A stretch of DNA of 64,000 bases from Tolypothrix brevis GSE-NOS-MK-07-07A. Its GTDB lineage: Bacteria > Cyanobacteriota > Cyanobacteriia > Cyanobacteriales > Nostocaceae. The DNA lies in the NCBI GenBank assembly GCA_019358985.1, contig JAHHIJ010000009.1, forward strand, positions 62,001-126,000. Direction: 5' to 3'. The position numbers and the translations under genes are program-made. The notes beneath the pieces were generated by a model that saw nothing but the letters and a program-made list of their open reading frames with translations, had not been told where the DNA came from and made no database searches. How positions within the stretch are numbered: position 1 is the first letter of the stretch; each line of letters begins with the position of its first letter. Positions 71 to 4,319 of this stretch are shown piece by piece.

Positions 71-388
71 CGCGGGATAGAGCAGCCTGGTAGCTCGTCG
101 GGCTCAACGAGTAAGATTGACTAAACGCTTAAAAGTTAGTCTTACTATGGGCGGTACGTAAAGAAACTTACGTATGTTTACCTGTCAAACTCGGGGAAGC
201 CACTAGCGCGGTAATCCCGAACCAAGCTCCAGAAATGGAGAAGGTGTAGAGACTGGAAGGCAGGTACCCTAACAGGAAAGCTGAGGGTAAAGGGACAGTC
301 CAGACCACAAACTGGTTAATCCAGGCAGTGAAAACTGTAGATGGTAAGCATAACCCGAAGGTCAGTGGTTCAAATCCACTTCCCGCCA
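71..388 (+). tRNA. Initiator tRNA-fMet(CAU), interrupted by a group I intron
   Basis: The exons 71-104 and 349-388 join to a standard initiator tRNA. C1 faces C72, the unpaired first position typical of bacterial initiators. The anticodon stem UCGGG/CCCGA carries the three G:C pairs of initiators, and the 7-nt loop is CUCAUAA with anticodon CAU. The D-arm (GAGCAGCCUGGUAGCUC) and the T-arm (GUGGUUCAAAUCCAC) are intact. CCA appears to be encoded at 389-391. The 5' exon ends at U33, directly before the anticodon. Start and end follow the acceptor-stem pairing. Confidence 0.95.
105..348 (+). ncRNA. Group I self-splicing intron in tRNA-fMet
   Basis: This 244-nt insert sits directly 5' of the anticodon. 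It follows group I rules: the 5' exon ends in U (104) and the intron ends in G (348). It contains core sequences seen in cyanobacterial tRNA introns: an S-like element AAGGTGTAGAGACT near 240-253, then GGTACCCTAAC, and GAGGGTAAAGGGACAGTCC near 283-301. A P2-like hairpin pairs AAGATTGACTAA with TTAGTCTT (about 113-146). The intron has no ORF of useful size. The P1 guide pairing was not worked out. Boundaries are inferred from the tRNA fold and the U/G rule. Confidence 0.9.
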
Positions 389-402
389 CCAACTTAAGAA
401 AC

Positions 403-440
403 AAACCCTGTAACACTCAAAAGTTACAGGGTTTTGTTTT
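403..440 (+). terminator. Intrinsic terminator after tRNA-fMet
   Basis: A 12-bp stem AAACCCTGTAAC / GTTACAGGGTTT with an 8-nt loop is followed by TGTTTT. It lies 12 nt after the encoded CCA, between the tRNA and the endonuclease-like gene, so the two are probably separate transcripts or are joined only by read-through. Confidence 0.8.
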
Positions 441-472
441 ATGCTGATTAGCAGCTATTCCACAAATTGCAG

Positions 473-964
473 ATGGACACAAAGCTAAGGGGAGACATAG
501 CAGAACAAGCTGCGATTCTTCATGCTCTCAAGCGTGGTTGGGGAGTTTTAAAACCTGTTGGCGATCGCCTTGCTTACGACTTGGCGTATGATGTTGAAGG
601 AACTCTGATTAAAATCCAAGTTAAATATGCCTGGTTTGATGAGCCTTCAGGCAATTATGTCGTAGATAATCGTCGCACCAAAACAAATCGGCGACTAATG
701 GTTAGAGAAGCCTACAAACAATCCGACTTTGATTTTGCCTTGGTATATATAGAGAAACTTGACCTGTTCTATATCTTCCCGGTAGATGTGTTCATAAGCT
801 ATGGTAGCGAAATACATTTTGTTGAAACAGACAAGCGGCAGCGTAAACCACGTTCAGCCAAATATCGTGATGCTTGGGAGTTAATCTTACAAACGGTAGT
901 AAGTAAAGAAAGTAAAGAAAATTATCCGGACTTGCCCATGCAACTTGGAGAAGTGAATTTTTGA
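473..964 (+). CDS. Homing-endonuclease-like protein of the I-Ssp6803I / PDDEXK_5 type, outside the intron
   Basis: The protein is 163 aa from ATG 473; a TTG lies two codons upstream. The residues fit a restriction-fold active site: E11 (in DIAEQAA), D36 (in AYDLAYD), and Q49-x-K51 (in IKIQVKYA). As I recall, I-Ssp6803I, the PD-(D/E)XK homing endonuclease encoded inside the Synechocystis tRNA-fMet intron, uses residues at the same spacing (E11/D36/Q49/K51). That, and the position 82 nt after an intron-bearing tRNA-fMet gene, make cleavage of intron-less tRNA-fMet genes the most likely ancestral role. The unusual point is that the gene lies downstream of the tRNA and not within the intron. Whether it is still active cannot be told from sequence. 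The alternative is a generic PDDEXK_5 nuclease. Confidence 0.75.
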   Translation: MDTKLRGDIAEQAAILHALKRGWGVLKPVGDRLAYDLAYDVEGTLIKIQVKYAWFDEPSGNYVVDNRRTKTNRRLMVREAYKQSDFDFALVYIEKLDLFYIFPVDVFISYGSEIHFVETDKRQRKPRSAKYRDAWELILQTVVSKESKENYPDLPMQLGEVNF

Positions 965-1011: not shown

Positions 1012-2445
1012 GTGAAGCTGGAGCGACCGATTTTAGTGGGAGGATTGGGATTGTCCTTTTCTCTATGGATTTTACAAAATATGCATCATTCGATGGTGCA
1101 GATGGGAGAGTTGGGTTTATTTAGTCTGGTAGCAGTTGGTGGTGGTTTGTGGTTATTTAAGCAAAATCGCGGCAAAAATGCTTCTGATATCTTTGATGGA
1201 ATGGCTGTAAATCGGGTTAGAGTAGAAGAGGCGATCGCACTGACTGAAGTCATAATTAACCAACTTGCAACAGAAGTAGAGAATCATCCAGCTTTAGGGA
1301 CACTGCGAGAACAAGTTAATCAATTATTCTTTGAATTAGATAGACAAGAAATTAAACTAGCTGTTACCGGCGGAAAGTCGGTAGGTAAAACCACCTTAAT
1401 TCAAGTTCTACAGAAAAACTTCGCATCTGTAAAATTCAACGAAACAGCACCTTTGTTTGTAGAAGCCGCTGAAAAGTCAGATAATTTAGCAGAAGTTAAT
1501 CAATCTGATTTTATTCTGTTTTTGACAAACGGCGATTTAACAGATTCAGAATTTCAAAGCTTACAGCAGCTAAAGGCAGCAAATCAACCTGCAATGGTGG
1601 TTTTTAATAAACAAGACCAGTATCTACCAGACGAACGTCAGAGCGTGTTACTTTCGTTGAAACAGCGGATGCAAGGAAATGTAGTCGCAACTGCGGTATC
1701 TCCTTTGCCCACGAAAGTCAGGAAGCATCAAGAAGACGGTTCCGTGCAAGAATGGATGGAACAACCTGCACCAGATATTCAGCAGTTGACGCAGCATTTA
1801 TTTGAGATTGTCGCACAGCAAAGACAACAACTGGTGTGGACAACCACGATGAGAAAAGCGAAGTTGTTGAAAGCTGATGCGAAGATTGTGTTGAATGGCG
1901 TGAGATGCGATCGCGCAACTCCCATAATAGAACAATATCAGTGGATTGCTGCGGCTGCGGCATTCGCCAACCCAGTACCAGCGCTGGATATCTTGGCAAC
2001 AGCGGCAATCAATGCCCAAATGGTAATGGATTTGGGTGGTATTTATCAGCAGAAATTTTCCCTAGAACAAGCGCAAACTGTAGCCGGTGCAATGGGAAGT
2101 TTGATGCTGAAACTCGGTTTAGTGGAACTTTCTACGAAAGCTGTTAGCACTGTCCTCAAAAGTAACGCTGTCACCTTTGTTGCTGGTGGTGTGGTGCAGG
2201 GTGTCAGTGCTGCGTATCTTACTAGGGTAGCAGGTCTTAGCTTAATTGAGTATTTCGAGCAACAAGAAATCGCCTTAAATTCTGAAGGTGGTTTTAATTT
2301 GGATAAATTGCGGCAAACGTTGCAAAATGTCTTTGTGCAGAATCAGCAAATTGGTGTTTTGCAGGGATTTGTTAAGCAAGGTGTGAAGCGTTTGTTACCA
2401 GAAGCATCTCAAGGTAAAATAATCGCGTCTGAGACAGTTGCTTAA
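1012..2445 (+). CDS. Membrane-associated GTPase with DUF697-like C-terminus
   Basis: This is an Era-like P-loop GTPase of 477 aa from GTG 1012. That start lies 10 nt after a GGAG; an upstream in-frame TTG at 961 overlaps the preceding stop codon and is less likely. Two hydrophobic segments lie near residues 6-21 and 34-48. The Walker A motif GGKSVGKT is at 120-127 and the guanine-specificity motif NKQD at 199-202. The C-terminal third (about 310-470) is Ala- and Gly-rich with hydrophobic stretches, as in DUF697 domains. Such GTPase-DUF697 proteins are common in cyanobacteria and are of uncertain function, perhaps membrane stress or remodelling. Confidence 0.75.
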   Translation: MKLERPILVGGLGLSFSLWILQNMHHSMVQMGELGLFSLVAVGGGLWLFKQNRGKNASDIFDGMAVNRVRVEEAIALTEVIINQLATEVENHPALGTLREQVNQLFFELDRQEIKLAVTGGKSVGKTTLIQVLQKNFASVKFNETAPLFVEAAEKSDNLAEVNQSDFILFLTNGDLTDSEFQSLQQLKAANQPAMVVFNKQDQYLPDERQSVLLSLKQRMQGNVVATAVSPLPTKVRKHQEDGSVQEWMEQPAPDIQQLTQHLFEIVAQQRQQLVWTTTMRKAKLLKADAKIVLNGVRCDRATPIIEQYQWIAAAAAFANPVPALDILATAAINAQMVMDLGGIYQQKFSLEQAQTVAGAMGSLMLKLGLVELSTKAVSTVLKSNAVTFVAGGVVQGVSAAYLTRVAGLSLIEYFEQQEIALNSEGGFNLDKLRQTLQNVFVQNQQIGVLQGFVKQGVKRLLPEASQGKIIASETVA

Positions 2446-2459
2446 AGGTTAGTTACGTT

Positions 2460-2828
2460 TTGTGCAACTTTAGCGATCGCTTATCTGAAGAACTGCTAGC
2501 AGCGAGAAAACTCAATGTCAGACCACTGACGGTAAGCGATCGTCAATTTGAGACAACAGTCAATGCAGGAACAGTCAAATGGGCAGTTACGGAACAAAGA
2601 GAATTATTTATAGTTCCAAAATATGTACAAGGGCAAGAAATATCCCACACTGTTTTAACTAATGGGGAACCTGTACTAGCTGCGGGTGAGGCAGATATTA
2701 CTGGTTTTAATAATTACTACTACTTGCTCAATATCAACAATTACAGCGGACACTATTAACCAAGTTTAAGTAGTTTACAAATTGGCAAAGAAGCTTTTAA
2801 AGCTAACGGCATCAATATTCCAGATTGA
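2460..2828 (+). pseudogene. Hypothetical gene with an in-frame stop (probable remnant)
   Basis: A 99-aa reading frame begins near 2460 with no good start codon (TTG) and only 14 nt after the GTPase stop. It ends with TAA at 2757-2759 after the residues NNYSGHY. The same frame then continues for another 22 codons (PSLSSLQIGKEAFKANGINIPD) to TGA at 2828. The stop falls between HY and PS; a C-to-T change of CAA to TAA would give HYQPS, which reads like a natural continuation. I interpret this as a nonsense-mutated, 5'-truncated gene, or a protein shortened by about 23 residues. I do not recognise the family. Confidence 0.5.
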
Positions 2829-3087: not shown

Positions 3088-3101
3088 GCAACGTTAATGT
3101 G

Positions 3102-4319
3102 ATGACTTTTGATCGCCCTACAATTTTCTCCTTTTTTGCCGGCTCTGGTTTCCTTGATTTAGGTTTTGAAAACAACGGTTTTAATATTGTTTATGTAAAT
3201 GAAATTTTTTGCCCTTTTATGTCAGCATACCGCTATTCACGGCAGGCTCTCAATCTGCCATTGCCGAAATACGGATATCATTACGGGGAAGAAGCCGACG
3301 TAACCAAACTTATTGAAGGTTTACCAGCAAAACGTCTGCGAGAGTTAATAAAAGATTGCCGCAAGTCTAATAATATAATTGGTTTTATTGGTGGTCCTCC
3401 CTGTCCTGATTTTTCTGTTGGTGGTAAAAACAAAGGACGTTTAGGAGATAATGGTAAACTTTCGGCTGCCTATGTTGAGTTAATTTGCCAACAACAGCCT
3501 GATTTCTTTTTGTTTGAAAACGTCAAAGGTTTGTGGAAAACAGCAAAACATCGTTTATTTTTTGAAGCGCTGAAACAACAATTACAGCAAGCAGGTTATG
3601 TATTAACAGAGCGTTTGATTAATGCGATTGAATATGGTGTACCTCAAGATAGAGAAAGAATTATTCTGATAGGTTTCCGAAAAAAACTTATTCAAGATAT
3701 GGGAATAATACTTCCGAGTGAAAATATTCTTCCTGAAGGTACTTTTCCTTGGAAAAAACACATTATATATCCTCAAAATAAAGTCTTTTCTTACCCTTGG
3801 GGGATGCGCGAAGCATTCAAAGAAGATTCTATAGTGTTATGTCCTGATGGAATTCCTCAAGAATTAACAGTTGAATATTGGTTTAGAAAGAATGATGTAT
3901 TAAATCATCCTAATTCAAAACACTATTTTCAACCAAGGGCTGGGATAAAAAAATTTGGTGTTGTTGATGAAGGAGATGATTCCAAAAAGTCTTACAAACG
4001 TCTTCACCGATGGCGTTATTCTCCCACAGCTTGTTATGGCAATAATGAAGTACATTTACATCCTTACAAAGTTAGAAGAATTTCTGTAGCGGAAGCTTTA
4101 GCGATACAATCTTTACCTGAAAATTATGTGCTTCCAGAGAATATGACGTTGACGAATATGTTTAAAACTATTGGTAATGGTGTACCATATCTAGCTTCAA
4201 AGGGATTGGCTGAAACTATCCTTGACTTTTTAGCAACAGGGGATAGTGGAAAAGAAAATGAGCTAGAAGACGATATCTACGGCACACGAGGTGAGCGATC
4301 GCAATGCTTTTTACCCTGA
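3102..4319 (+). CDS. C5 cytosine DNA methyltransferase (solitary)
   Basis: This 405-aa protein has the ordered motifs of an m5C methyltransferase: motif I FAGSGFLDLGF (12-22, SAM binding), motif IV GGPPCP with catalytic C101, motif VI ENVKG (139-143), motif VIII QDRERI, and motif X GNGVP near the C-terminus. Pro follows the catalytic Cys region as PCP in place of the commoner PCQ. A GTG sits one codon upstream of the chosen ATG 3102. No restriction endonuclease gene lies beside it, so it looks like an orphan methylase or the remnant of a restriction-modification system. Its target sequence cannot be read from the protein. A HIP1 site lies just before its stop codon. Confidence 0.9.
   Translation: MTFDRPTIFSFFAGSGFLDLGFENNGFNIVYVNEIFCPFMSAYRYSRQALNLPLPKYGYHYGEEADVTKLIEGLPAKRLRELIKDCRKSNNIIGFIGGPPCPDFSVGGKNKGRLGDNGKLSAAYVELICQQQPDFFLFENVKGLWKTAKHRLFFEALKQQLQQAGYVLTERLINAIEYGVPQDRERIILIGFRKKLIQDMGIILPSENILPEGTFPWKKHIIYPQNKVFSYPWGMREAFKEDSIVLCPDGIPQELTVEYWFRKNDVLNHPNSKHYFQPRAGIKKFGVVDEGDDSKKSYKRLHRWRYSPTACYGNNEVHLHPYKVRRISVAEALAIQSLPENYVLPENMTLTNMFKTIGNGVPYLASKGLAETILDFLATGDSGKENELEDDIYGTRGERSQCFLP

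Follow-up and report, generated by a model that had tools for sequence, protein, structure and literature searches.

The tRNA-fMet gene of Synechocystis PCC 6803 is interrupted by a 655-nt intron with a 150-aa open reading frame encoding the endonuclease I-Ssp6803I, as set out in the relevant passage of PMC1995217. The locus considered here involves the same enzyme family and the same tRNA. It differs in that the gene of I-Ssp6803I is located inside the intron, whereas the present gene forms a separate insert past the terminator of the tRNA, next to an ORF-less intron. The Synechocystis layout recurs in two of the loci that we read (L052 and L053), where a 655-nt intron inserted at the same point encloses the gene. 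In the cyanophage S-PM2, F-CphI lies beside the intron-bearing psbA, which the corresponding part of PMC6083498 describes as collaborative homing. The present locus resembles it, since a free-standing endonuclease gene adjoins a gene whose group I intron would block the cleavage site, with the same logic of a shield and a spreader. However, F-CphI belongs to a phage, is linked to a protein gene and is of the Endo VII type, whereas here the partners are a bacterial chromosome, a tRNA gene and a PD-(D/E)XK enzyme. Furthermore, sequence evidence at the present system points to exit of the gene from the intron, as opposed to convergence on it for F-CphI.

According to section 12 of PMC3984707, the consensus is that free-standing endonucleases invade introns, and that collaborative homing is an independent convergence of the two on one site. 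Of these hallmarks, a free-standing gene and an ORF-less intron are found at our locus, but independent convergence on one site is not. The part of PMC3610870 that deals with Nodularia notes that this genus lacks a tRNA-fMet intron present in some other cyanobacteria. A description of the outside-gene arrangement was not found in the open literature searched; the primary papers on I-Ssp6803I, F-CphI and the cyanobacterial tRNA introns lie beyond that scope and may contain a prior mention.

We analysed a 64,000-nt stretch of contig JAHHIJ010000009.1 of Tolypothrix brevis GSE-NOS-MK-07-07A, hereafter the window. Its features are collected in Table 1. ARAGORN, run with introns allowed, reports a tRNA-fMet at 71–391 of the plus strand, with an encoded CCA and a 244-nt intron; run without this option, it misses the split gene. 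At the borders 105–348 the 5′ exon ends in U and the intron ends in G, in line with the splice rules of group I introns, and the anticodon CAT (349–351) opens the 3′ exon. This agrees with a preliminary description of the same DNA, in which a 244-nt ORF-less intron was placed directly before the anticodon. Sense reading frames of at least 40 aa are absent from the intron, and an antisense frame of 82 aa crosses it (168–416). The general Rfam family Intron_gpI (RF00028) matches 121–318 with 47.2 bits (E 1.1e-10); as this is below the gathering score of 50, a scan at the gathering cut-off returns nothing on the intron. The group I fold that had been proposed for checking by covariance is supported by an alignment of 26 introns, where 38 of the 66 pairs in the consensus fold have both partners altered in one or more of the sequences. 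The intron thus appears to be of the group I type and would be self-splicing. When the split tRNA was searched against the organism's own genome, the only full match was this locus; apart from it, 62 nt of the intron core matched at another place, and there was one match of 19 nt. A second tRNA-fMet was not found in this genome, so splicing is presumably needed.

Table 1. Features of the tRNA-fMet locus in the window.
Feature	Positions	Strand	Basis or remark
tRNA-fMet 5′ exon	71..104	+	ends in CGGGCT; ARAGORN and sequence
Group I intron, ORF-less, 244 nt	105..348	+	C first, G last, anticodon next; RF00028, alignment, consensus fold
P1-loop stretch, putative scar of a former internal gene	129..148	+	resembles the last endonuclease codons at the junction register
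tRNA-fMet 3′ exon, CCA encoded	349..391	+	ARAGORN and sequence
Rho-independent terminator of the tRNA, 5′ of the endonuclease gene	403..434	+	stem-loop, -21.5 kcal/mol, z -6.35
Inserted DNA with the endonuclease gene	442..958	+	set against 8 empty loci; ends known to within a few nt
Free-standing PD-(D/E)XK homing-endonuclease gene, I-Ssp6803I family, 163 aa	473..964	+	PF11645, 2OST
Endonuclease 3′ coding tail, codons 141–163	893..961	+	homologous in relatives to intron nt ~46–96 (ribozyme core)
slr1306-family GTPase-like gene	1012..2445	+	717 bits; directly past the terminator in empty loci

The endonuclease gene starts 82 nt past the end of the tRNA-fMet, and its protein matches PF11645 (PDDEXK_5) with 184.8 bits against a cut-off of 26.1, residues 3–139 covering positions 1–137 of the 138 in the profile. 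In a phmmer comparison, residues 2–144 align with I-Ssp6803I (PDB 2OST) with an E-value of 6.1e-69 and 234 bits, so the gene does not belong to an unrelated PDDEXK family, which had been named as the outcome that would speak against its identity. The preliminary description had also read the spacing of E11, D36, Q49 and K51 as that of I-Ssp6803I; all four residues are present and are invariant in the 77 intact copies, the window gene included. We take this numbering to be that of the I-Ssp6803I active site. A gene is called intact here if it is open from its first codons through at least 132 codons; the first codons of the 77 are ATG in 65, GTG in 7, TTG in 3, and ATA and ACG in one each. The gene is under purifying selection, with a median dN/dS of 0.114 (367 of 561 pairs) compared to 0.16 for the GTPase. 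A second copy was not found in the own genome, where one further match has an E-value of 0.5. A role of the enzyme in restriction or defence was considered and rejected: the sole PADLOC match is to a model itself named homing endonuclease.

The terminator that was said to part the endonuclease gene from the intron is borne out by a predicted stem-loop (Table 1), and a comparable one is visible by eye in the loci of relatives. In eight empty relatives, the terminator end GTTTTA abuts TTTTGATCTATTC, followed by the GTPase gene. In invaded relatives, about 515 bp holding the endonuclease gene separates GTTTTA and TTTTGATCTATTC, and the stop codon of the gene is made jointly with host sequence at the insert border. 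Among loci with the GTPase in view, a pattern search located the right border in 29 of the 34 with an intact gene and 7 of the 8 with a broken one; it did so in 9 of the 12 remnant loci, 10 of the 12 empty ones and 1 of the 6 that have the intron only. The distance from tRNA to gene in the 35 intact loci has a median of about 85 nt, 26 of them lying within 200 nt and the farthest at about 2.1 kb. The gap between tRNA-fMet and GTPase also holds varied small reading frames in other genomes (L152, L172, L180, L131, L149) and is perhaps an insertion hotspot. Further downstream, the window carries a DNA cytosine methyltransferase gene (3099–4319), the best PADLOC models for which are MTase_II and DruM.

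The arrangement was surveyed in a family set of 217 genomes of Nostocaceae, where the near relatives include Plectonema, Nostoc and Anabaena. It turned out to be patchy, the intron being present in 50 of the 217, and the concern that it might be universal in cyanobacteria is thereby removed. A survey for introns without the gene and for the reverse had been suggested in the preliminary description. Downstream of the 50 introns the gene is intact in 35 genomes, broken in 8 and without a match in 7, in one of which (G533) the contig ends soon after the tRNA. An intact gene beside an uninterrupted tRNA-fMet was not found anywhere in the set. All 43 genomes with a gene match at E <1e-45 (35 intact, 8 broken) are among the 50 with the intron. 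This cut was chosen after viewing the matches; the one that follows (E 2e-33), in the intronless genome G521, contains three stops and was counted as a remnant. Decayed pieces of the gene were seen 3′ of the tRNA in 15 intronless genomes, or 16 including G445, which comes from the locus-level search only. The 23-nt anticodon-arm site is uninterrupted in all 30 intronless loci read (16 with remnants and 14 sampled without clear remnants), and the exon-joined 23-nt strings, with the frame set one base early, are the same in 50 of 50.

With and without the intron, intact genes number 35 and 0, and broken or remnant ones 8 and 15 (Fisher p 1.6e-8, kinship uncorrected). In ten kinship-corrected pairs drawn from a GTPase tree (72 of 80 loci had the GTPase), a mean of 6.6 went the same way, 0 the opposite way and 3.4 showed no difference, with a median p of 0.031 (range 0.004–0.06). 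Similarly, a 386-genome sample of the phylum gave 18 intron matches and 14 genes at E <1e-40, all within the 18; 9 of these 14 carriers are also in the family set. Of the loci taken from named genomes, 40 in all, 34 have an intact or broken gene outside an ORF-less intron and 4 have it inside the intron, and remnants accompany an intronless tRNA in 2 (L042 being one). The four inside cases belong to a Deltaproteobacterium, one member each of Omnitrophota and Armatimonadetes, and an Uhrbacteria bin. Of the families among the loci read, f5, f17 and f38 are of the inside type and f1, f3, f50 and f58 of the outside type. The gene fossils fit a precise loss of the intron preceded by the death of the gene.

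Judging from these comparisons, it is likely that the locus is a split mobile group I intron, in which the gene once sat in the P1 loop and moved out, and the intron serves as a shield against the enzyme. The intron interrupts the sole tRNA-fMet found, at what is predicted to be the recognition site of the enzyme, so that genomes with the intron would be immune and those that lack it would be cut in the anticodon loop. That the target spans the intron insertion site is suggested by the homology to I-Ssp6803I and by the co-occurrence of intron and gene. Repair of the cut from an intron-bearing chromosome would copy the intron, and conversion running in the 3′ direction would carry along the 3′ half of the tRNA, the terminator and, some 0.1 kb beyond, the gene of the endonuclease. 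Since the gene is outside the intron, intron loss with an active enzyme should be self-destructive, and the gene would therefore have to decay first. Earlier, the gene would have resided in the P1 loop, reading into the ribozyme core, and would have left with part of the core as its C-terminal tail. Cleavage, immunity and homing, like self-splicing, are what we infer, and the mode is most likely a cis-linked collaborative homing. The preliminary description had offered an intermediate or relic of collaborative homing. Its logic is supported, as an intact gene co-occurs with the intron, but a one-off relic is at odds with an arrangement that recurs widely under purifying selection.

The homing cycle of Goddard and Burt is said to run through invasion, decay and loss. 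Invaded, decayed and empty states coexist here too, side by side in close relatives; what differs is that intron and gene are separable, so that intron loss leaves a gene fossil which orders the steps. The cycle is among those named in section 12 of PMC3984707. The dS of the endonuclease gene tracks that of the neighbouring GTPase (median ratio 0.955, 298 pairs), suggesting that vertical inheritance and loss account for much of the pattern seen today. Pairwise distances are correlated (Spearman) at 0.74 between endonuclease gene and GTPase, 0.49 between intron and endonuclease gene, and 0.43 between intron and GTPase. Allowing for the GTPase, the correlation between intron and endonuclease gene is 0.29, a value as high as which was reached in 1 of 1000 permutations. 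The dS ratio, the strong purifying selection and gene distances that follow the host gene all speak for an alternative that we consider unlikely but serious, namely that the pair is a vertically inherited immobile remnant, fixed in an ancestor and now only lost, with the gene kept since intron loss is blocked or a host role has been gained. However, the host-gene tree has empty loci interspersed with invaded ones, L130 falling with L153 and L185, for example, and the seven intron-bearing genomes with no gene match show that the intron persists without the gene.

The spacer between tRNA and gene is a further point against an immobile remnant, as it tracks the state of invasion and not host relatedness. 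Over 58 nt, at similar host relatedness, its identity is 0.743 between empty and invaded loci (41 pairs), 0.874 between empty ones (6) and 0.81 between invaded ones (66), and 9 of 5000 permutations gave a difference as large. For the 60 bp 5′ of the tRNA, the respective values are 0.910, 0.939 and 0.913. The spacers of remnant genomes are slightly closer to invaded loci (0.811) than to empty ones (0.76). In one genome (L116) the endonuclease gene comes from the branch of L180, L183 and L124, that is, from another genus, while its own intron and flanks are kept. We read the history of the split intron as mostly vertical descent with repeated decay and some homing, the horizontal part being seen indirectly.

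Several signs point to the intron as the former place of the gene. In intron-internal genes, the reading frame starts a few nucleotides into the intron and runs into the ribozyme core. Many of the free-standing cyanobacterial genes have an ending of this kind. In L161, for instance, the coding tail is identical to its own intron (47–96) at 38 of 50 positions, with a score of 52, and none of 5000 shuffles exceeded 32. Tails of at least 40 nt were compared with their own introns in 31 family genes, 3 short ones of 34 being dropped. The match has p <0.05 in 25 of them, p <0.01 in 16 and p >0.05 in 6, and the best matches start at intron positions 40–100 in 28 of 31. A score of at least 26 was reached by 22 of 31 tails vs. 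11 of the 367 control windows from gene bodies and 17 of the 1252 from GTPases, the top gene-body window (35) exceeding the median tail (28). The tail of the window gene itself has diverged: it matches its own intron at 54–95 with p 0.016, while the tail of its sister L157 fits (p 0.002). With a profile HMM of 26 ORF-less introns, nhmmer gave matches at E ≤0.01 (best 1.4e-7) to 14 of the 41 outside genes from cyanobacteria, the window gene not being on this list. The same profile found none of the 6 outside genes of Omnitrophota, and the best GTPase control had an E-value of 3. The matches sit at the junction seen in inside genes, within one codon either way: model 6–55 corresponds to nt 421–470 of L161, and model 2–81 to nt 420–499 of L029.

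The ORF-less introns may hold a counterpart of this tail. The 20 nt 5′ of the junction agree with the last codons of the gene at a mean of 11.2 of 20 positions at register 0 (34 rows; 14 of 20 in the window), vs. 1.7 to 9.6 of 20 at 36 other offsets. This sign is weaker than the tail, because the stretch also takes part in P1 pairing and may itself belong to the older intron, from which the gene captured it; under either reading, the gene would once have been at the P1-loop junction. Among the 11 tails outside the family, 9 have no significant match to their own intron. Those of other cyanobacterial families comprise L196, which fits (p 0.003 at intron 76–135), L032, which has p 0.010 but at a different place in the intron (203–231), and L197, L198, L199 and L200, with no significant match. 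In Omnitrophota, none of the five outside-gene tails compared (L258 not among them) is significant, L242 showing 11 identical nt with p 0.10. An origin of the gene leader from the tRNA or from the 5′ end of the intron was rejected, as 25 of 26 loci gave no signal and one had p 0.023.

Since the genes of relatives carry ribozyme-derived coding sequence, the gene seems to have come from inside the intron. The suggestion that an endonuclease lost its intron position, one of those in the preliminary description, thus gains support, and independent origins of intron and gene are ruled out by the ribozyme-derived tail. A reversed order would make the free-standing gene ancestral and have internal genes of the Synechocystis type captured afterwards; this is the consensus that section 12 of PMC3984707 gives for mobile introns. 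The gene tree would permit it, as a single clade of the seven nearest internal genes is compatible with the data (AU p 0.448), and the direction is not fixed by the tree alone; the clade of cyanobacterial outside genes has a support of 92/56, with a bootstrap that had not settled. Nevertheless, we regard this order as quite improbable for cyanobacteria, to which the contradiction is confined, because the free-standing genes end in ribozyme core in the register of the internal genes and the ORF-less intron resembles the last gene codons at the junction, unless the tail was gained by recombination with an internal gene.

The family also occurs in Omnitrophota (the phylum label being that of record L039), at E <1e-40 in 31 of 285 genomes. 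Of 30 loci read, 23 have the gene inside the intron, 6 outside, and one is at a contig end with no tRNA in view. Some split tRNAs of this phylum were mislabelled by ARAGORN and were taken as tRNA-fMet from their exons. In L258, the outside gene is located 5′ of the intron-bearing tRNA-fMet and is divergent from it, within an open frame of 532 codons that has a long stretch after the endonuclease part. A single clade of the outside copies of both phyla is rejected (AU p 2e-59, in a tree where the branches concerned are long), which implies that the outside position originated, or was retained, on more than one occasion. A viral relative of the gene was not found in one scan of viral contigs. 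In L240, also from Omnitrophota, a gene for a 237-aa LAGLIDADG_2 endonuclease (1905–2618, minus strand; 66 bits) lies between the intron-bearing tRNA-fMet and the PD-(D/E)XK gene, giving two homing-type genes in a row. That the gene is one of many unrelated passengers of an insertion hotspot 3′ of tRNA-fMet, its link to the intron being incidental, is hardly credible. Other reading frames in the same gap (e.g., L152, L172, L180, L131) speak for it; against it, each of the 43 substantial copies comes from a genome that has the intron, and the same linkage is seen in Omnitrophota, whose genes do not group with the cyanobacterial ones in a single clade.

A second PF11645 family, of about 220–240 aa and with a C-terminus like that of a phage HNH endonuclease, was observed in Nostocaceae (L259, 1346–2169; L262–L281; L283–L287). 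In 21 of 22 fetched loci its gene starts tens of nucleotides 3′ of an intronless tRNA-Arg(UCU); L260 has neither. Among these tRNAs the anticodon stem exists in several discrete versions, and it differs even within a genus, as L271 and L281 show. In the genus of the window, the gene is present in two genomes and as remnants in two, and it is absent from the window's own genome. It may be another free-standing, tRNA-linked endonuclease, with immunity provided by recoded anticodon stems.

On balance, we favour the view that intron-encoded endonucleases can leave their intron and turn the two into an addiction pair, the intron being a DNA-level antidote that could not be lost while the enzyme is alive. 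The exit would date back to a common ancestor of many cyanobacteria, with perhaps an independent case in Omnitrophota, and the C-terminus of the freed cyanobacterial enzyme would have been written by the ribozyme. Two sequence fossils, namely the stretch of ribozyme core at the end of the gene and, with less certainty, the codons of the gene left in the loop of the intron, speak for the reverse of the accepted step. As the parts are separable and several stages are preserved in close relatives, the order of the homing cycle and the idea of the intron as an antidote should be directly testable.
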